DNA of 64,000 nt from Elusimicrobia bacterium HGW-Elusimicrobia-1 (GCA_002841695.1 PHAN01000002.1:154807-218806), one strand, 5' to 3'. Shown: positions 1-9,477, counted from the stretch's first letter. Made by a program: numbers and translations. Notes: generated by a model not told the origin, from the letters alone.

Positions 1-3000
1 GGTTCGGCATCGGGATTCTACGGCGTTCATTCTCCCGACGGTTCGCTGGCCTGCGCCGTGGGCGAAGGCGGAAGGATTTTCGTAAGCACCGATTCCGGCA
101 CCGGATGGACTCAAAAGGCATCGGGCGTAGCCGAGCGCATAAACTCGGTTTACTTCGCCGATGTCTCCACGGGCTTCGCGGCGACGGCCTCAGGCAAGGT
201 TCTTAAATCCGACGACGCCGGCGAGACATGGTCGAATCTCGGCACAATGACCGGCGCGCCCGCGCTTTACTCCGTGTTTTTCGTGAGTCCGTCGACGGGT
301 TTTGTCGCCGGAGCGGGGGGTAAATTATTCAGAACGCTCAACGGCGGATCGGCGTGGAGCGACATATCCCCGGGCGACACCGGCGATTTCAGAAAAATAT
401 TTTTCTACGACGAAAGCGCGGGTTTCATTGCGACATCCGGCGGCAACGTTTTAAGAACTACCGACGGCGGCGATTCGTGGACATTGGCGGCGGCGACCGA
501 CCAGGCGCTTTACGGCATATCCTTCGTGAGTCCATCAAACGGAATTGCCGTGGGCGACAAGGACACCATAGTCCGTTCCGCCGACGGAGGAGCCACTTGG
601 GTGCTTGTGAGTTCGGCCGCCGCGGGACGTCTCAACGGCGTGTCGTACTTCCCGGGCACGGCGATAGCGGTGGCGGCGGGCACATCGGGCAGACAGTTTC
701 GCACCACCAACAACGGACTCGCGTGGTCTCAGATCAGAATGGCCGGCGCGTCGTCGGAAATGCGCTGGAACGGAATGGTTTCCACCTTCGTTCCCGTCGC
801 GCAGCGGTTAGTCCAAAGAAAAAATAACCAGGCGGTCGCCCGCCTCGGCCTCTGGAACGCGTACGGATCGAACTCTTCGGCCAACCGTGTCACCGTCACG
901 CGAACCGGCTCGGCCGCCGGAACCGCCGTCACGTCGGTAAAAGTATATCGCGACAGAAACGGGAACAGGGCGTTCGACGCCGCGGACGAGCCCTATCTCG
1001 GCGAGGCGGTTTTTGTGGGCGATTCCGCGCAGGTTAACTTCGCCAATCAGACGATTTCGGCGACAACGTCGTATTTCTTCATCACTTATTCCCTTGCGCA
1101 GGACGCGCCCATAGGCGCAACACTGGGGGCGCAATTTAATTTCGGCTGTGTCGGCTCCGTCGGCAATCCGTCGTTTTCCAGAAATAATCTGCCTTACGAC
1201 ATCGCGCCGAGAGACATAATACCGAGTTCAAACACCATTTTTATGACGATACACTCAACTACGCCGGCGCAAGTGGAGCAGGGCGCAAGAAACGTCAGAA
1301 TATCGTCGTTCTCGATGATAGCCGACATCGGCGAGTCGCCGTTTACCCGTCTCAGGGTGGACATCTCGACGAACAGCGTGAACCTTGCCCCGTCCGACAT
1401 AGAAAAGCTTAACCTTTACAGAGCCGACAACTGGGACGACATCGGAGTTACGCGGCTTGTGTCCACCGCGGCTTTCAACTCTCTTGGCGTGGCGGCGCTC
1501 AATATCGCGCTTGCGAATAATCCGACCGAGCCGGGGCTTTTCGCCGACATCGACGCTTTTACGACGGCTCAATATTTCCTGACCGCCGACATATCGCCAA
1601 ACTCGAAATATTCTTCCGACACTCAGGATGTAAGGTTCGCGGTGACGACGAGATTTACCACCAACTACTTTACCCTCGACGCCGAAGGAGCCAACGGCAT
1701 ATTGCCGGCGGGGAAACTGTTCTTCTCGGGCGCAGTAAAAATAAATGTCGCTTCCGACAAACTTACCGTAAACCCCGTGATTGAAGCCATCCCCATACTC
1801 AGACAGTCCGACACGAAGGTATTTATGCCTTTGAACCTCTCGCTCAACGACAATAACGCCGTGTGGACGAAGATACGCATAGACAGGTCCACGGGATCCA
1901 CCGCGGTCGATGCGGACGTTGAGAGAGTTACCCTTTACCGCGACGTCAACGGAGACGGCGAGCTTAATGAATCCGTCGACGCGGTTGTCGGCAGCGCAAG
2001 GTTTTCCGGAGGCATCGCCGATATTGTTTTTGCCGTTCCCGAGACGCTCAATACAATACTGCCGGCCCACACCACATATTTCGTCGCCTGCGCAATTTCC
2101 AAGCGCGCCACCGTCGGAGCCACACTGGCTCTGAGGATGGCTTCCACATCTTATATAACGCTGGGCGGCGTTGACCAGGTGATGCCCACCAACTTCCCTA
2201 TACAGTCGGCGGAAGCCACAATACAGGACTTCCCCGACGAGGTTACCGCCTCCGTGCGCTCGCGCGCGCCCAGAGACGCGACCGTGGCCGAAACTAACGT
2301 CCTTATGCTTTCGGCCGAACTGCGGGCATTCTGCGACGCCACGCTCGACAGGGTGGTGGTGGCGCTCGAAGGAACCGCCGAGCCATCAAACGTAGTCGCG
2401 GCCAAGATTTTTTACGACGACGACGGCGACACGCTTTTCTCCGCGTCCGGCGACACGCTTCTGGGAGCGGGGACATTTGACAGTAACGGCATCGCCTCGA
2501 TAGCGCTCGCCAGTCCGCTTACGATTTATGACGCGTCGAAGATGATTTTTGTTGTCTACGATTTTGAACCCAACTCCACACCCGATCGCACCGTGGGCGC
2601 GGGGCTGGATTCTTCCGGCCTTCAGTATAACCTGCCTAACTCGGGACAGAATTTCGGATACATAAGGTCCACGTTTATGGGACTTCTCGACAGGCGCACT
2701 CCGTCGGTGCCTTCCGCCAAATTTGTCATAGACGAACCCGGCGGCATAGAACTTGAGCCGGGTAAAATAACTTACTTCATCAACAGGAAAGCGTCTTTGA
2801 AATTCTCCTGGACGTCAATCGCCGAAAACGGCGTCAGGGACCTCGGCTACGCCGCCGCGTCATTCGATATGACAACGAGCACCGACACGCCCGACGTTAC
2901 CGCATGGCGAGTATCCTCCGACGATAATATCGACTTCGACCGTCTGAACCTTAAACACAATACGACATATTATGTCTGGTGCAAAGCCACCAGCGCCGAC

Positions 3001-3696
3001 GATTTTGTGCGCGTCAACACCTTTGAAATGAAAGTCGACCTGACCGCCCCGCCGGATCCCGAAAAACCCCAGACAACCGCTCAGGACGAAACTTCCCCTG
3101 CGGCGCCCGCCGCCGCGCCGCGTCGCGCGTCCGCGTCGGGATACTGGGTTTCGTGGGAACCCGTGAGAGACATCGAGTCGGGCATACTGTACTACGAAAT
3201 CTCCGAAAAGGTCGGCACGGATATGTGGGTGGCGCTGGGCACGGCCACGGCCGTGGAATATTTCGTGGCGTCCTCGTCGCCGTCGCAGTTTTACTATTAC
3301 CGCATCCGCGCGAAAAATTACGCCGGCACATGGAGCGCCTATTCGCTTCCGTCGTCTGTGGCGTACATATCGCTTCCGGACGAAACGCTCGATATGCTCT
3401 CCACATATCCCAATCCTTTCGATTCGCGCCTGGCCTCCTGCAAAATAGTTTACATACTCAAAGGCCCGTCCGCCGTGGATATGAGAATATACGACCTGCT
3501 GGGCAATCTGGTGCGCAAGTGGGACTACACCGCCGGTTCCGAAGGCGGAGCGGCCGGCTTTAATGAAATCAGATGGGACGGCGCCGATTCTTCGGGTTAT
3601 AAAGTGGCGATGGGAATGTATATTCTTTCAGTGGACGTCACGCCTGTCGACGGAGAAAAGAAAAATAAACGCTGGAAAATCGGTGTGATACATTAG
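1..3696 (+). CDS. Large secreted YCF48-repeat protein with FN3 and FlgD-like C-terminal domain (5' partial)
   Basis: The frame is open from base 1, so the gene begins upstream; the GTG at 58 is only an internal codon. The N-terminal ~250 residues are about five YCF48/BNR-type beta-propeller repeats (motifs such as TTDGGDSWT, STDSGTGW, RSADGGATW). The middle holds several repeated beta modules that each carry an acidic loop resembling a calcium-binding DxNxDG motif (DRNGNRAFD, DVNGDGELN, DDDGDTLFS). A fibronectin-III-like domain lies at about nt 3110-3380. The last ~95 residues form an FlgD-Ig/sorting-like domain (YPNPFD, then MRIYDLLGN, WDGADSSG, GMYILSVDV). This architecture is that of a secreted or cell-surface protein. 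It ends 50 bp before the PorV-like gene. Function is unknown; adhesion or surface display is inference. Confidence 0.85.
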   Translation, partial: GSASGFYGVHSPDGSLACAVGEGGRIFVSTDSGTGWTQKASGVAERINSVYFADVSTGFAATASGKVLKSDDAGETWSNLGTMTGAPALYSVFFVSPSTGFVAGAGGKLFRTLNGGSAWSDISPGDTGDFRKIFFYDESAGFIATSGGNVLRTTDGGDSWTLAAATDQALYGISFVSPSNGIAVGDKDTIVRSADGGATWVLVSSAAAGRLNGVSYFPGTAIAVAAGTSGRQFRTTNNGLAWSQIRMAGASSEMRWNGMVSTFVPVAQRLVQRKNNQAVARLGLWNAYGSNSSANRVTVTRTGSAAGTAVTSVKVYRDRNGNRAFDAADEPYLGEAVFVGDSAQVNFANQTISATTSYFFITYSLAQDAPIGATLGAQFNFGCVGSVGNPSFSRNNLPYDIAPRDIIPSSNTIFMTIHSTTPAQVEQGARNVRISSFSMIADIGESPFTRLRVDISTNSVNLAPSDIEKLNLYRADNWDDIGVTRLVSTAAFNSLGVAALNIALANNPTEPGLFADIDAFTTAQYFLTADISPNSKYSSDTQDVRFAVTTRFTTNYFTLDAEGANGILPAGKLFFSGAVKINVASDKLTVNPVIEAIPILRQSDTKVFMPLNLSLNDNNAVWTKIRIDRSTGSTAVDADVERVTLYRDVNGDGELNESVDAVVGSARFSGGIADIVFAVPETLNTILPAHTTYFVACAISKRATVGATLALRMASTSYITLGGVDQVMPTNFPIQSAEATIQDFPDEVTASVRSRAPRDATVAETNVLMLSAELRAFCDATLDRVVVALEGTAEPSNVVAAKIFYDDDGDTLFSASGDTLLGAGTFDSNGIASIALASPLTIYDASKMIFVVYDFEPNSTPDRTVGAGLDSSGLQYNLPNSGQNFGYIRSTFMGLLDRRTPSVPSAKFVIDEPGGIELEPGKITYFINRKASLKFSWTSIAENGVRDLGYAAASFDMTTSTDTPDVTAWRVSSDDNIDFDRLNLKHNTTYYVWCKATSADDFVRVNTFEMKVDLTAPPDPEKPQTTAQDETSPAAPAAAPRRASASGYWVSWEPVRDIESGILYYEISEKVGTDMWVALGTATAVEYFVASSSPSQFYYYRIRAKNYAGTWSAYSLPSSVAYISLPDETLDMLSTYPNPFDSRLASCKIVYILKGPSAVDMRIYDLLGNLVRKWDYTAGSEGGAAGFNEIRWDGADSSGYKVAMGMYILSVDVTPVDGEKKNKRWKIGVIH

Positions 3697-3698
3697 GG

Positions 3699-3864
3699 CA
3701 GTGGTTAGTGGATAGTGATTAGTGGTTAGAATAAAGAGTTTTTTTATGAATAAGTCATATATTCACACTAAGACAATAGGAACGGCGCTGTCTCGGCCTT
3801 TGATACGCTGCGCCCTTGCCATTTTTATTTTTACTATCCACTACCCACTAACCACTAATCACTG
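3699..3864. repeat. Inverted pair of period-7 repeat arrays enclosing the start of the PorV-like gene
   Basis: Arm 1 (3699-3729) is a run of GTGGTTA/GTGGATA/GTGATTA heptamers. Arm 2 (3834-3864) is the reverse-complement type (CTATCCA/CTACCCA/CTAACCA). By hand, 26 of 31 positions pair. The 104-nt loop contains the ATG at 3746. Arm 2 is translated as part of the signal peptide of the downstream gene. Similar arrays occur at 7125-7226 and 11537-11621. Confidence 0.85.
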
Positions 3865-5404
3865 TCTTTACGCCGCCGGCAGGTCCGGCGCGTTCATGTC
3901 GTGGGGCGCCGGAGCAAGACATCTTGCGCTCGGCAGCGCCGGAACGGCCGTGGGCGACGCCGACGCTTTCTCGCCATACTATAACTCCGCTTCGCTTGGC
4001 TTCATTGAAAAAAAAGAAATCGGCACGCTTCAGGCCGTACTTTGGGAAGAAACCGCTTACAGCTACTTATCTTATGTGCATCCCATGCTCGACCGCGGCG
4101 CTATCGGTTTCGACGTCATACGACTTTATTCCGGCGGCGCCGTAAAGACCGACGAGAACAACCGCGTGACGGGTGATTTTGCCGGCCAGCAGATTGCCGT
4201 GGGCGTAGGATACGGCAAGGCCGTCACCGAAAAACTTTCCGTGGGATTGCGCGGCCGTGTTCACAATAACACTCTGGACACCGTTTCGGCGTCGGGCATT
4301 GCGATGGACGTGGGCGCCGCGTACCGATTGACGCCGCTGGCCGACGTGGGATTGAGTTTCGCCAACGTTATATCGGTGATTGCGGGCGACACTTCGGATA
4401 CTATGCCGGTAGTGGCGAAAATCGGCGGCGGCTACAGAGTTTTCGGCGAGCGGTTGCGGCTGGCCATGGACTACGGCGCTACGCTGGGCGATGGCTCGTC
4501 CGTCGGATCGTATGCGGTCGGTATAGAGAGCCGTTTGAATAAATATTTTGCGCTGCGCCTTGGCAAGAATCGCCAGGAGATGACCGGCGGATTCGGCTTG
4601 GGCTTCGGCGGTTTCAATCTGGATTACGCCATGGCCACTCATTATCTGGGACTCTCGCACCGCGCGTCGTTCAACTTCCGATTCGGACGTTCGATGGCGG
4701 AACTCCGTGAACTGGCGCGCAAGGCCTCCGCCGCCGCCAAATTGATAGAGAGCTCGGAGACGACATCCGTCGCGCCCGAGGACGAACAGCGCATTATGGC
4801 CTTCCAGGAAAATTATCAGAGCGCCATCAATATGTACAAGAGAGGGTTGTTTACCATAGCTCTGGACCGCTTCAAAAACGCCGGCAACATAGACCCCACG
4901 GATCCCGACGTTCCTCTTTACGTCGAGCGCCTGAACCTGATAACCCCGATTGTCCCTCAGAATATGTCTACGGATAAAGTCAGCGAACTTATGCGCCGCG
5001 GCATAGTGTATTTTGTGGAAGGCCACGGGCAATCGTCGGTAAAAACGCTGGCCTACGCCCTCTCTCTGGAACCCGATAATTTCACAATGATGAGATTGCT
5101 CGGCCGCGTCGAGGAAAAAACCGGATACCGCGTGGACCGCTCGCAGCCAGCGTCGGGACTTACGCTCGTCGATAAAATGCAATACGAGGGTTTGATAGCG
5201 TTCAAGAAAAAAGATTACGCCGAGACGATAAAACTCTGCGAAGAGATACTTTTACTTGAGCCCGACAACGCCCTGGCGCTTAAACGAATGGGCTCGGCCT
5301 TTTACGCTCTGGGCGAAAAAGACAAAGCCAAAAAGATGTGGGAGCGCTCCAATGAACTCGTTTACGACAAGAATCTCGACGATCTTATAAAGAAAATCAA
5401 ATGA
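3746..5404 (+). CDS. PorV/PorQ-like outer-membrane beta-barrel with C-terminal TPR repeats
   Basis: A long N-terminal signal peptide (hydrophobic CALAIFIF, small residues near AAG at about 45) precedes a barrel domain that opens with the family-typical pattern SGAFMSWGAGARHLALGSAG and AFSPYYNSASLG. Alternating aromatic/glycine strands continue to about residue 310, ending HRASFNFRFGRS. The C-terminal ~230 residues are helical TPR-like repeats (YKRGLFTIALDRFKNAG; AFKKKDYAETIKLCEEILL). The ATG at 3746 is preferred over the in-frame GTG at 3722, which lies inside the heptamer repeat. Residues near FTIHYPLTTNH are encoded by the second arm of that repeat. The gene sits between a secreted protein with an FlgD-like tail and a motor cassette. 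Relation to type 9 secretion PorV or to UPF0164 barrels is family-level; the job here is unproven. Confidence 0.8.
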   Translation: MNKSYIHTKTIGTALSRPLIRCALAIFIFTIHYPLTTNHCLYAAGRSGAFMSWGAGARHLALGSAGTAVGDADAFSPYYNSASLGFIEKKEIGTLQAVLWEETAYSYLSYVHPMLDRGAIGFDVIRLYSGGAVKTDENNRVTGDFAGQQIAVGVGYGKAVTEKLSVGLRGRVHNNTLDTVSASGIAMDVGAAYRLTPLADVGLSFANVISVIAGDTSDTMPVVAKIGGGYRVFGERLRLAMDYGATLGDGSSVGSYAVGIESRLNKYFALRLGKNRQEMTGGFGLGFGGFNLDYAMATHYLGLSHRASFNFRFGRSMAELRELARKASAAAKLIESSETTSVAPEDEQRIMAFQENYQSAINMYKRGLFTIALDRFKNAGNIDPTDPDVPLYVERLNLITPIVPQNMSTDKVSELMRRGIVYFVEGHGQSSVKTLAYALSLEPDNFTMMRLLGRVEEKTGYRVDRSQPASGLTLVDKMQYEGLIAFKKKDYAETIKLCEEILLLEPDNALALKRMGSAFYALGEKDKAKKMWERSNELVYDKNLDDLIKKIK

Positions 5405-5648: not shown

Positions 5649-7118
5649 ATGAATAAAACCGCCGGAGCGCTTCGATTATTTATAGCCGCCATATTCTCAT
5701 TATTGTCGGCGGCGTCTGCTTTTGCCGCGACGTCTCTTATGGAAGAGAAACTGCTCTTCGAGAAGGCGATTCAGGACCGCGCCGAGAAAATCGTCGAAAA
5801 AATAACCGGCTCCAAGGAAATGGTGGTGCTCACCACCGTCGAACTTGCCTACGAGGAGTCCAAGAAGGATGGCGAGCGCGACGCTTTCGCAGGCGCCCGC
5901 CGCGCCGAAGAGGACTATCTGCCCGGCATCACTTATTCTTACGTCCCTTTCGACACTTACAGCATGGGTCAGCAAAATGTCGTCATAAAACGGATAACGG
6001 TTCTTATTACGCTTCCTTTGGAAACCCAGGAACTGCTCTCAGAGCGCGTCCGCAAGGAAACAAACGAATTGCTGGGACTTAATCCGCTGCGCGGCGATAC
6101 CGTGCAGGTAACAAAGATCGCATTCAGCCGCGAGACAAAAAAACTTCGCGAATATCTGGAAGATTATTCGCGGCATCTTTACTGGTTTTTCCTTATGGGA
6201 CTTCTCACGCTGTTTCTGTTCGGCCCCGTGAGAAGTTTTTTTAAAACAGTCGTAAAAGCTATGGAGTTAAAGATCGAGGCGGACACCAGGATAAGAGGCG
6301 GCGCGGAACTTACCGGCGCGGGTATGGGCGGCGGGGGCAATCCGTTCGGCGGCGGTTCTATGGAACTCGTCCTCGACAGAAAACGTCCGCAACTCAAGGA
6401 AGGAGAGCAAAACCCGATGAAGCGTTTCGGATTCATTAACGACGCAAATCTCAAAAATCTCATCTACCTGATCAAAAAAGAGCCGGCGGAATCTATCGCC
6501 GTGGTAATAAGTTATCTGCCGCAGCATATGGCCTCGCTGATATTGACGGAACTTGCGCCGGCGACGCAGGCCAAGGTGGCCATGAATCTTGCCACCGTCA
6601 AAATTCTCAACCCCGCCGACGTGGATTCGATAGAAAAAGACATAAAGACAAAAATAGATTACCTCCTCGGCGGAGAAGAAAACTTTATGCAGATTCTCGA
6701 TTCCGTCAACCGCGAAACGCAGGAGAACATACTAAAGACACTCGAAACCGAGAATCCCACCCTGGCCGTAAAACTCAAGAGCCAGTTGTTCTTCTTCGAG
6801 GATTTGATACTTCTGGACAAGACGTCGCTGCTTAAGGTCATAAGAGAATCTCAGCGCAGACAAATATCCCTGGCTCTGGCTCTGAAAAACTCGCCCGAAG
6901 AAATCAAGACCAGGGTAATGGACGCTCTTACCGAAGGCGCCCGCGCAATGCTGGCCGAGCAGATAGACCTGCTCGGAGAGGTCTCGGACAAACGCATTCA
7001 GGAAGAGCGCAAGATGATAGAGGCCGCCGTCAAGGATTTGGAGAAAAACGGCGACATAGTTATAGACCGCGCCAAAAAAGAACAGGGCGACGGCTATGAT
7101 ATAGTGACGAGAAAATAA
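5649..7118 (+). CDS. Membrane-anchored FliF/FliG-type fusion, putative rotor protein
   Basis: 489 aa. Residues 1-26 form a signal peptide or first membrane helix. Residues 27-175 are predicted periplasmic and resemble the last FliF/YscJ periplasmic domain (FEKAIQDRAEKIVEKITGS, then alternating hydrophobic strands). A membrane helix spans 178-198. A Gly-rich linker (GAGMGGGGNPFGGG) leads to FliG middle and C-terminal domains: LKNLIYLIKKEPAESIAVVI and LAPATQAKVAMNLA, then the FliG_C torque region near residue 380 (FFFEDLILLDKTSLLKVIRE) and a C-terminal helix ending GDIVIDR. FliG normally is a soluble ~335-aa protein bound to FliF. Here the ring membrane anchor and the switch protein look fused. 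RBS GGAGAG is at 5637. motA and two motB genes follow, supporting a motor role. Ring formation is inference. Confidence 0.85.
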   Translation: MNKTAGALRLFIAAIFSLLSAASAFAATSLMEEKLLFEKAIQDRAEKIVEKITGSKEMVVLTTVELAYEESKKDGERDAFAGARRAEEDYLPGITYSYVPFDTYSMGQQNVVIKRITVLITLPLETQELLSERVRKETNELLGLNPLRGDTVQVTKIAFSRETKKLREYLEDYSRHLYWFFLMGLLTLFLFGPVRSFFKTVVKAMELKIEADTRIRGGAELTGAGMGGGGNPFGGGSMELVLDRKRPQLKEGEQNPMKRFGFINDANLKNLIYLIKKEPAESIAVVISYLPQHMASLILTELAPATQAKVAMNLATVKILNPADVDSIEKDIKTKIDYLLGGEENFMQILDSVNRETQENILKTLETENPTLAVKLKSQLFFFEDLILLDKTSLLKVIRESQRRQISLALALKNSPEEIKTRVMDALTEGARAMLAEQIDLLGEVSDKRIQEERKMIEAAVKDLEKNGDIVIDRAKKEQGDGYDIVTRK

Positions 7119-7124
7119 AAAAGA

Positions 7125-7226
7125 AGTGGTTAGTGGATAGTGAATAGTGGATAGTAAAGCCCTTCGTTCGGCTACAGTCGGTTAGCAAAAACGGACTATC
7201 CACTATTCACTATTCACTATCCACTG
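7125..7226. repeat. Inverted period-7 arrays forming a 31-bp hairpin before motA
   Basis: Arm 1 is 7125-7155 (AGTGGTTAGTGGATAGTGAA then TAGTGGATAGT). Arm 2 is 7195-7226. By hand, 29 of 31 positions pair, with 19 uninterrupted pairs next to a 39-nt loop. The hairpin ends 4 nt before the AAGGAG ribosome-binding site of motA. It has no following T-run, so it is not a standard terminator. It fills the only gap inside the motor cassette. Confidence 0.85.
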
Positions 7227-7244
7227 CCCCTAAGGAGACATTAG

Positions 7245-8012
7245 ATGGACATAATGACAGTATCAGGTTTGTTGATAGGCGGCGCGGCGATATATTATAC
7301 GATGTATGTCGGCGGTGTCGTCGGGTTGCTTCTGAACGCTCCGGCGGCCGTGCTGGTGTATGGCGGCACGCTCGGAGCCACACTCGTTACCTACCCTTTT
7401 ATCATATTGAAAAGAGTGCCGAAGGCGATGATGCTCGTATTATTTCCGCCGAAGCGCTATACGCCGCAGTATATGATGAGTATGCTTCTTCGACTCGCCG
7501 AAAAAGCTAAAAAGTCGGGCGTTGATTCTCTTGAGGCCGAGTTCCCGACCCTTAAAGACCCGTTTCTGGAAGACGGCCTGCAAGCCGTGCTTGACGGTCT
7601 CGACCCCACGGTTGTGCGCGAGAACCTTGAAAAAGAAATAGTGTTTCTCCGTCGCAGACACTCCCAGGTAACCGCAGTTTTTAAAAGCATGGGCGCATAC
7701 GCTCCTATATTCGGTCTGCTGGGAACTCTTATTGGCGTCGTACAGGTGCTTCAAAACCTGACCGACCCCACATCAATAGGATCGTCGATGGCCGTCGCCG
7801 TTACCACCACGTTTTACGGCATCTTCGGCACGAACTTCATATTTCTGCCCACGGCCGGAAAACTCGCCGCGCTGACGGAACAGGAAGTGCTGCTCAAGGA
7901 AGTGGCCATCGAGGGCATTCTCTCGATACAGGCGGGCGACATACCGCTCATAGTTTCAAGGAAACTTCACTCGTACCTGGCGTACAAAACCAGAAAAGAG
8001 GCGAAAAAATAA
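7245..8012 (+). CDS. motA: MotA-type flagellar-family stator channel subunit
   Basis: 255 aa, the usual flagellar MotA/PomA length. Membrane segments lie near residues 5-25, 30-52, 150-172 and 183-205. The proton-channel signature is clear: GAYAPIFGLLGTLIGVVQVL, then MAVAVTTTFYGIFGTNFIFL. The cytoplasmic loop motif AEKAKKSGVDSLEAEF places K89 and E97 where E. coli MotA has Arg90 and Glu98, the residues that touch FliG. This argues for a flagellar-type stator rather than TolQ/ExbB. An AAGGAG site is at 7231. It lies directly downstream of the FliF/FliG-like gene and upstream of two motB genes. Confidence 0.93.
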   Translation: MDIMTVSGLLIGGAAIYYTMYVGGVVGLLLNAPAAVLVYGGTLGATLVTYPFIILKRVPKAMMLVLFPPKRYTPQYMMSMLLRLAEKAKKSGVDSLEAEFPTLKDPFLEDGLQAVLDGLDPTVVRENLEKEIVFLRRRHSQVTAVFKSMGAYAPIFGLLGTLIGVVQVLQNLTDPTSIGSSMAVAVTTTFYGIFGTNFIFLPTAGKLAALTEQEVLLKEVAIEGILSIQAGDIPLIVSRKLHSYLAYKTRKEAKK

Positions 8013-8054
8013 AATACGACGGCGCCGCGCACCGGCGCGAATAGAGATAAAAAT

Positions 8055-8705
8055 ATGGCTATTTTCAGGCGTATGAGAGACAGACGCGCCCGTCCGCGCG
8101 AGGACGGCGACGACGGCGGCACAATTTGGCTTACCATTTATTCGGATATGATGACCAACTTGATGCTGTTCTTCCTGATGCTTTTTACAATGTCCCGTCT
8201 GCAAACGGGTTTGCGCGAGGACTTACAAAGCGCGCTCAAAGACCAGTTCAGCGGAAAAAAAACCGAGCAGAAAGTCGAAGAAAAAAAAGACGACCGGCAA
8301 ATGGAGGAATTAAAAAAAATAGCGCTCGTCGAGGAGACGGAGTCCAGAATCAAAATAACGCTGCCCGCGCCCGTCCTGTTCGACATAGGAAAGGCCGATG
8401 TAAAATCCGAAACCGGACAAATACTCTCGGAAATATCAAAACCGCTCAAGGAAAGCAAATATCCCATTACGGTCGAGGGACACACCGACAACATCCCGAT
8501 GTCGGGAGGGAAGTATAAATCCAACTGGCACCTGTCGGCCGCCCGGGCGTTTGCGGTGCTGAATTATCTCACGGAGAAAGAAGGCATCAGTCCCGCGCGT
8601 ATGTCGGCGCTGGGCTATGGCGAGTATCAGCCGGTGGCTTCAAACGATACCGAGGAAGACCGCGCCAAAAACAGAAGAATAGACATAATCCTTGTGAAAA
8701 AATAA
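8055..8705 (+). CDS. motB: MotB stator subunit with intact proton-binding Asp
   Basis: 216 aa. A basic N-terminus precedes one membrane helix that begins YSDMMTNLMLFFLMLF; D31 (codon 8145-8147) aligns with the essential MotB Asp32 that carries protons. A charged linker (about 55-95) and a C-terminal OmpA/MotB peptidoglycan-binding domain follow (TVEGHTDNIP, LSAARAFAVLNYL, ALGYGEYQPVASND, NRRIDIIL). It would pair with MotA to anchor the stator to the cell wall. The gap to motA is 42 bp and the gap to the second motB is 28 bp, so all three are probably one transcript. Confidence 0.93.
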   Translation: MAIFRRMRDRRARPREDGDDGGTIWLTIYSDMMTNLMLFFLMLFTMSRLQTGLREDLQSALKDQFSGKKTEQKVEEKKDDRQMEELKKIALVEETESRIKITLPAPVLFDIGKADVKSETGQILSEISKPLKESKYPITVEGHTDNIPMSGGKYKSNWHLSAARAFAVLNYLTEKEGISPARMSALGYGEYQPVASNDTEEDRAKNRRIDIILVKK

Positions 8706-8733
8706 AATGCCGCCGCGTCTTTAAGGAATAATT

Positions 8734-9477
8734 ATGAAACCCGAAGATATACTCAAACAACGTCTTGCCGAACGCGATGCCAGACAGGCCGAGGTCGCCG
8801 AATCGTCGGGCCGGAAGCGCGCTCATCGCGCCGATGAAGACGATATCAACCCTGAGTCGCTATGGCTGATTCCCTACGGAAATATGATGACGGTGCTGAT
8901 GGTTCTTTTCCTGATTTTGTATTCGTTCACATATAACCAGAACTCATCGAGTTACGAACAGGTGCTTACGCAACTTCAGAGCGAATTCACCAAACTCGAC
9001 AAAAAAGCTCAGGAAAAATTCGAAGCCAAGCAAAAAGAAAGCCAGGCCGCCGCCGAGATATCGAATTATCTTTCCGAAAAAGGCCTGGACAAACTGGCGA
9101 ATGTGGACGTAAACGCCCAGCGCATCAGAATACAGCTGGCTACTCCCGTGTTGTTTGATTCCGGCGACGCCGAACTGAAACTGGAAGCGGCGTCCGTAAT
9201 GGATGAAATAGCCGAAATGCTGCGTAAAGTGCCCAACAAGGTCATAGTCGAGGGGCACACCGACAATATTCCCATAAGCACTCCGAAATATGCCAACAAC
9301 TGGGAGCTTTCCGTCGATCGCGCCATAAACGTGATAAACTATATGAACAAACTCGGAGTTCCGTCCGAAAGATTCGCCGCGGCCGGTTACGGCGAGTTTC
9401 AGCCGGTGGGAACCAACGATACCCTCGAAGGCCGCTCGAAAAACCGCCGCATCGAGTTCATAATAGTAAGGACATAA
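8734..9477 (+). CDS. Second MotB-like protein with the key Asp replaced by Asn
   Basis: 247 aa, the same layout as the upstream MotB: N-terminal charged tail, one membrane helix, and an OmpA-type domain (VEGHTDNIPISTPKYANN, VDRAINVINYM, AAGYGEFQPVGTND, KNRRIEFII). The helix begins IPYGNMMTVLMVLFLILYSF: the residue in the Asp32 position is N50 (codon AAT at 8881-8883). A MotB with Asn there is not expected to conduct protons in known stators. The C-terminal domain looks fully functional, so this is not an obviously decaying gene. It may form a mixed stator with the intact MotB, or a static anchor. Confidence 0.9.
   Translation: MKPEDILKQRLAERDARQAEVAESSGRKRAHRADEDDINPESLWLIPYGNMMTVLMVLFLILYSFTYNQNSSSYEQVLTQLQSEFTKLDKKAQEKFEAKQKESQAAAEISNYLSEKGLDKLANVDVNAQRIRIQLATPVLFDSGDAELKLEAASVMDEIAEMLRKVPNKVIVEGHTDNIPISTPKYANNWELSVDRAINVINYMNKLGVPSERFAAAGYGEFQPVGTNDTLEGRSKNRRIEFIIVRT

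Follow-up and report, generated by a model that had tools for sequence, protein, structure and literature searches.

The DNA analyzed here, referred to as the window, is a stretch of 64,000 nucleotides from Elusimicrobia bacterium HGW-Elusimicrobia-1 (GCA_002841695.1 PHAN01000002.1:154807-218806), which belongs to the class Endomicrobiia of the phylum Elusimicrobiota, as judged from near relatives. It carries a compact cassette of four genes: a natural fusion of FliF and FliG parts (5649 to 7118), MotA (7245 to 8012), and two MotB proteins, MotB-1 (8055 to 8705) and MotB-2 (8734 to 9477). All features described for the window lie on the plus strand, and the genes are separated in this order by gaps of 126, 42, and 28 bases. 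These coordinates agree exactly with those of an original prediction made from the window sequence, which had proposed a stripped-down ion-driven rotor for a non-flagellar use. From sequence comparison and structure modeling, the identity of the cassette as a rotor plus its stator is well supported.

The fusion protein (489 amino acids) was characterized with Pfam, sequence profiles, an AlphaFold model, and Foldseek. As had been predicted, a signal peptide, a part resembling the last domain of FliF, a membrane helix, and the middle and C-terminal domains of FliG are all present in this one protein. The N-terminal hydrophobic segment (residues 10 to 28 by hydropathy) lies within 5649 to 5732 and is followed by a FliF RBM3-like periplasmic domain (residues 36 to 159; 5754 to 6125) with a FliF-like "RGD...F" end. 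The single transmembrane helix (residues 180 to 198; 6186 to 6242) is seen in both the hydropathy profile and the AlphaFold model. The FliG middle domain (residues 258 to 337; 6420 to 6659; Pfam FliG_M, E = 1.1e-10) and the FliG C-terminal domain (residues 364 to 472; 6738 to 7064; FliG_C, E = 1.2e-22) complete the protein, which also matched the FliG structure 1lkv in a search of the PDB (4.7e-28). RBM1 and RBM2 of FliF (YscJ_FliF) and the N-terminal domain of FliG (FliG_N) form no part of the window fusion. Frames of 1244, 1187, and 946 amino acids were observed for the fusions at L175:4917-8651, L183:7804-11367, and L112:10035-12875, respectively, compared with the usual 480 to 680 amino acids (loci are labeled L and genomes G, with G000 as the window genome).

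Pfam alone gives no call for the FliF-like part of the window fusion. A profile built from 19 relatives recovers FliF chains from the PDB (9yh6, E = 1.6e-5; 6scn, E = 0.001), and the paralogue in the same genome exceeds the YscJ_FliF_C cut-off (24.0 versus 23.8 bits) with the full profile covered, as does the fusion at L105. In the AlphaFold model, the RBM3 part takes a helix-strand-strand-helix-strand arrangement; an insert between the strands (residues 73 to 108) is disordered, and around it the predicted local distance difference test score (pLDDT) exceeds 90 for the most part. With this model as the query, Foldseek returned FliF S-rings for the RBM3 part with a probability of 1.00 and FliG for the rest, so that both a FliF-like ring fold and FliG_C are found in the predicted structure. 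Four lines of evidence from profiles and models thus identify the domain between the signal peptide and the transmembrane helix as the S-ring domain (RBM3) of FliF.

The torque helix of FliG_C corresponds to residues 429 to 441 of the fusion and not, as originally placed, to a site near residue 380. Lys264 and Asp288 of Escherichia coli FliG correspond to Lys413 and Glu437, respectively, and across the fusion family, Lys or Arg and Glu, Asp, or Gln dominate at these two positions. Arg281 and Arg297 of E. coli FliG are replaced by Gly and Ser in the window fusion. The FliM-binding EHPQ motif of FliG reads EPAE, and this loss is consistent with the absence of FliM described below.

MotA (255 amino acids; Pfam MotA_ExbB, 5e-25) has the length of flagellar PomA/MotA and is nearest to these proteins over its whole length. 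It retains both motor prolines as well as Lys89 and Glu97, which had been noted previously as lying at the FliG-contact positions. MotB-1 (216 amino acids) and MotB-2 (247 amino acids) both contain the MotB_plug and OmpA domains in Pfam, the latter corresponding to an OmpA-type peptidoglycan anchor. The earlier description of two MotB proteins calls for one correction: MotB-1 has the ion-binding aspartate (Asp31, YSDMMT), whereas MotB-2 has Asn50 at this position (YGNMMT; codon at 8881 to 8883). In the phylum, 34 pairs of adjacent MotB genes were compared: the aspartate is found in the first member of 32 and in the second member of 21; the remaining 13 second members have Asn (11), Ala (1), or Ser (1), and no pair lacks the aspartate in both members. 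This pattern would fit a MotB heterodimer with one working ion site.

The window genome is 96.9% complete, and a search of it detected no FlhA, FliM/N (FliMN_C), or YscJ_FliF; the positive controls of the FlhA search were detected. For these three families, the original observation of no flagellar genes in the 64 kb holds genome-wide, the rod, hook, and filament families being outside this search, and as far as FlhA, FliM/N, and FliF show, there is no flagellar regulon elsewhere. Because FlhA is absent, export of rod, hook, and filament proteins is implausible. Among 199 Elusimicrobiota genomes, a sample of metagenome-assembled genome data, FlhA, FliMN_C, and YscJ_FliF exceed the family cut-offs in only one, G032. 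Its cluster (G032:C2:104000-141900; L110 and L111) is an ordinary flagellar one with FlhA, FlhB, FliR, FliP, FliM/N, FliL, a FliI-type ATPase, MotAB, and separate FliF and FliG. This cluster, for which mis-binning is possible, contradicts the published statements that no Elusimicrobiota possess flagellar machinery (PMC11257099, which also describes the isolates as non-motile) and that the clade has no flagellar genes (PMC7031533).

Homologues of the fusion were found in 61 of the 199 genomes; the exclusion of G032, which has an ordinary FliG, and of G010, which has a weak fragment, leaves 59 fusion genomes. Each fusion-bearing genome has one to six matches, and 38 to 39 genera of the sample are represented. 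A flagellar-type MotA (E ≤ 1e-20) occurs in all 59 fusion genomes versus 4 of the 140 others, although shared ancestry means that these are not independent counts. The four are G032, which is truly flagellated, and G037, G066, and G123, which contain MotAB pairs of the same kind (G037:C14, G066:C124, and G123:C27; L107 to L109) and are possibly incomplete assemblies. Family f2, which its small genomes and kinship suggest to be the host-associated Endomicrobiaceae, lacks the fusion system. The unit of fusion, MotA, and MotB is conserved and phylum-wide. A wider contig search beyond the sample, which reached close relatives of the fusion only, yielded a contig of 3.8 kb (JANXBR010000109.1; L087) from a bin named "Thermodesulfovibrio sp."; it is probably a mis-binned Endomicrobia contig, as it comes from the same SKYB metagenome as Endomicrobia matches.

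The cassette is part of a larger unit than the interval 5649 to 9477 originally proposed. Directly upstream lies a gene for a 560-amino-acid protein (3722 to 5404) with a PorV-like outer-membrane barrel and a C-terminal TPR region, assigned with Pfam (TPR), profile, AlphaFold, and Foldseek. Its profile matches PorV 6h3i (E = 5e-26), its AlphaFold model (pLDDT 85.6) has 14 strands and a TPR tail, and the best Foldseek matches of the model are PorV chains of the type IX secretion system (T9SS), 8gl6_F and 6h3i_F. The gene before it encodes a giant secreted protein of 2280 amino acids, of which the window holds the C-terminal part (1 to 3696); the gene begins 3147 bases before the window, and its complete open reading frame (ORF) is L063:11661-18503. 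This protein comprises DUF2341, fn3, YCF48-like BNR repeats, and a C-terminal FlgD_ig domain, and the surface proteins at the same position in relatives end in Por_Secre_tail, the T9SS sorting tail, or in CHU_C. The window genome has 32 PorV-family matches, the best two of which, both full-length barrels with TPR, lie directly upstream of its two fusion genes; no further PorV-like gene was found in the stretches checked elsewhere in the window and at fusion-less loci, all of them short.

A similar neighborhood recurs across the phylum. From 121 regions, 109 fusion or FliG ORFs were obtained, of which 86 (one being the ordinary FliG of G032) are flanked on each side by 4 kb or more. Within 7 kb of these 86 loci, MotA is present at 62, MotB at 56, a PorV-like barrel at 59, a long coiled-coil protein at 32, and another protein of at least 1300 amino acids at 28. 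At L103:8211-14107, L104:7467-13155, L106, and L205, the fusion is accompanied by two uncharacterized genes of approximately 280 to 400 amino acids, MotA, and MotB, and no PorV-like gene is found. The window genome also encodes a SprA_N-like protein of 1701 amino acids (G000:C15:5819-6730; L116 and L117), which exceeds the cut-off (40 versus 27 bits) only if stretches in a single frame are combined. Together with similar proteins in approximately 35 of the 199 genomes, it suggests a divergent T9SS-like translocon.

The second cassette of the window genome (G000:C11; L062) encodes a PorV-TPR protein, a 618-amino-acid fusion in which FliG_C is followed by TPRs, and two coiled-coil proteins (1546 and 1047 amino acids), which show no signal peptide or membrane helix by hydropathy. 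Pfam finds no family in these coiled-coil proteins. Giant cytoplasmic coiled-coil proteins of up to approximately 1850 amino acids are observed beside TPR-tailed fusions at L062:11647-19446 and in relatives. The second MotA-MotB pair of the genome is on a separate contig (L096); at L074, L075, and L078, in other genomes, a fusion of the TPR-tailed type, a coiled coil, and MotAB are located together and are therefore parts of one system. The tree of fusions resolves several clades with matching gene orders, the most widespread of which (n = 40, support 0.98) has TPRs after FliG_C and coiled-coil genes following. The tree includes only two ordinary FliG outgroups and is silent on descent from a flagellum versus an earlier origin. 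The ratio of nonsynonymous to synonymous substitution rates (dN/dS) is 0.07 for the window fusion and 0.10 for the second fusion against same-genus orthologues, and 0.06 and 0.17, respectively, for the PorV-TPR and coiled-coil genes of the second cassette against a same-genus genome; these values are approximate, as dS is high. The fusion, PorV-TPR, and coiled-coil genes are maintained by purifying selection.

The cassette is not a flagellum, because a full FliF, FlhA, and FliM/FliN are lacking, yet its mode of action very probably resembles that of a flagellar motor. By analogy with the flagellar mechanism, many copies of the fusion would form a ring, and ion flow would turn the MotA pentamer, which would push FliG_C and rotate the ring. 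The predicted torque contact is that of Lys413 and Glu437 of the fusion against Lys89 and Glu97 of MotA, and rotation is probably unidirectional, because there is no FliM/FliN switch. The genes around the cassette suggest a link with the outer membrane and the cell surface, which fits gliding, secretion, or another envelope machine. As the gene neighborhood suggests, the periplasmic face of the ring may act by torque or lateral motion on the PorV-like barrel, via the periplasmic TPR of the latter, and the barrel in turn on giant T9SS-type surface proteins, which would produce gliding-like movement or surface transport. The second cassette probably follows the same principle, in that its rotor, which bears TPRs, would serve as a docking site for the giant cytoplasmic coiled coils. 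The probable arrangement, in our view, is a rotor driven by MotAB that delivers torque to outer-membrane carriers of the PorV type and to surface proteins; outer-membrane coupling together with a gliding-like use, suggested by the neighborhood, is an evenly balanced proposal. A somewhat more tentative view, plausible but falling slightly short of even chances, is that the cassettes represent a further kind of ion-driven machine for surface motility or transport, in which a phylum-wide flagellar rotor and stator, lacking an export apparatus or propeller, would power carriers of the outer membrane and giant proteins of the surface. Such a machine would parallel those of Bacteroidota and Myxococcus and, in some species, would use asymmetric stators composed of a competent and an Asp-less MotB.

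Several observations weigh against such a machine. The equivalents of Arg281 and Arg297 of FliG are gone in most fusions, and that of Asp289 is Gln in the window fusion. Because the window genome has a large number of PorV-like barrels, the neighborhood is suggestive only; approximately 30% of fusion loci have no nearby PorV-like gene, and the locus type FUS-c17-c18-MotA-MotB has none at all. We infer rotation, ring formation, and motility from genes and models, and a physical contact between the rotor and PorV-TPR is purely conjectural. Cultured Elusimicrobiota are reported to be non-motile (PMC11257099). The prediction of a stripped-down rotor for a non-flagellar use is nevertheless supported, given that, as far as FlhA, FliM/N, and FliF show, no flagellar regulon lies elsewhere in the genome and that the predicted structure contains both the ring fold and FliG_C.

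The cassette might instead power a type IX-like secretion system, in place of GldLM/PorLM and with no role in movement. A PorV-like carrier and T9SS-tailed substrates adjoin the rotor, the SprA_N-like protein is encoded elsewhere in the genome, and no GldM exceeded the cut-off in the 199 genomes in a search that had no positive control and did not include GldL (G171 has a weak match below the cut-off). On the other hand, SprA-like proteins occur in many Elusimicrobiota that lack the fusion, including G014, G029, and G062 (92 to 100% complete), so secretion needs no fusion in those genomes, and several rotor paralogues per genome better fit several machines; we regard this explanation as unlikely. 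Less likely again is an inside-facing machine, in which the rotor turns or organizes giant coiled-coil filaments for the cytoskeleton, cell shape, or positioning and the outer-membrane neighbors are incidental. The most widespread clade, with its TPR tails and coiled coils, would suit such a role, but the window cassette and most other clades have neither, and the coiled-coil cassettes mostly have PorV-TPR directly upstream as well.

That the cassette is a non-functional remnant of a lost flagellum is highly improbable: a flagellar cluster does persist in G032, and flagellar remnants are common in other lineages (PMC12199754), but decay is rejected by the dN/dS of 0.07 between two species and by the conservation of one to six copies per genome, always with MotA, over 38 to 39 genera; the fused architecture is also novel, as are its specific partners. 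Just as improbable is an anti-phage or envelope system of the type of Zorya, Tol, or Exb, in which MotAB would turn no rotor; this alternative was rejected, because the MotB matches to ZorB models (E down to 8e-26) reflect general MotB/OmpA similarity, MotA is of the flagellar type with no ZorA match and is linked to a FliG_C torque domain, and no ZorC/D/E-type effector genes were seen beside the cassette.

The proposed surface machine has counterparts among known systems. With the flagellar motor it shares a homologous S-ring domain, the FliG torque domains, a full-length flagellar-type MotA, MotB with plug and OmpA domains, and the membrane topology. It differs in that FliF and FliG are one natural protein lacking RBM1/RBM2 and FliG_N, the genome has no FlhA, FliM, or FliN and thus no switch, and several paralogous cassettes occur with outer-membrane and coiled-coil partners. 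The engineered FliF-FliG of Salmonella (PMC6079021) and the FliF-FliG chain of PDB 8z4d likewise join MS-ring and C-ring parts in one chain; these are laboratory constructs of complete proteins, whereas the Elusimicrobiota fusion is natural, trimmed, and flagellum-free. In Bacteroidota gliding and the T9SS (GldLM motor, GldJKN track, SprF/PorV carriers, and SprB adhesin), a periplasmic track is set in motion by ion motors and pulls outer-membrane carriers and their adhesins along (PMC12635249). Common to both systems is an ion-driven inner-membrane motor next to a carrier of the PorV family and to giant surface proteins whose tails are T9SS-like; here, the motor and ring are flagellar homologues rather than GldLM and GldJKN, and the cassette could do likewise with different parts. 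The Agl-Glt system of Myxococcus (AglRQS; see PMC9389320) also combines one MotA-like with two MotB-like proteins. Its coiled-coil cytoplasmic partner, AglZ, has a parallel in the second cassette. AglRQS is not known to have a FliF/FliG rotor. AglRQS belongs to the TolQ/ExbB-like group in a stator survey that does not mention Elusimicrobiota (PMC12505986).

No published description of natural FliF-FliG fusions or of Elusimicrobiota rotors was found among the open-licence papers searched. The role of rotor proteins in species that have no filament is a question already raised in the literature. A rotor protein occurs with no filament in 11% of non-motile species, for which an alternative function of unknown nature has been suggested (PMC12199754), and the fusion family is a concrete, conserved, and phylum-wide candidate for such a flagellum-free function. 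As a very small natural rotor, composed of an S-ring domain and FliG M and C with no FliM/N, it bears on the minimum required for torque and on the evolution of flagella or gliding motors. It also leads to the prediction that motility, or the transport of material over the cell surface, may occur in uncultured Elusimicrobiota.

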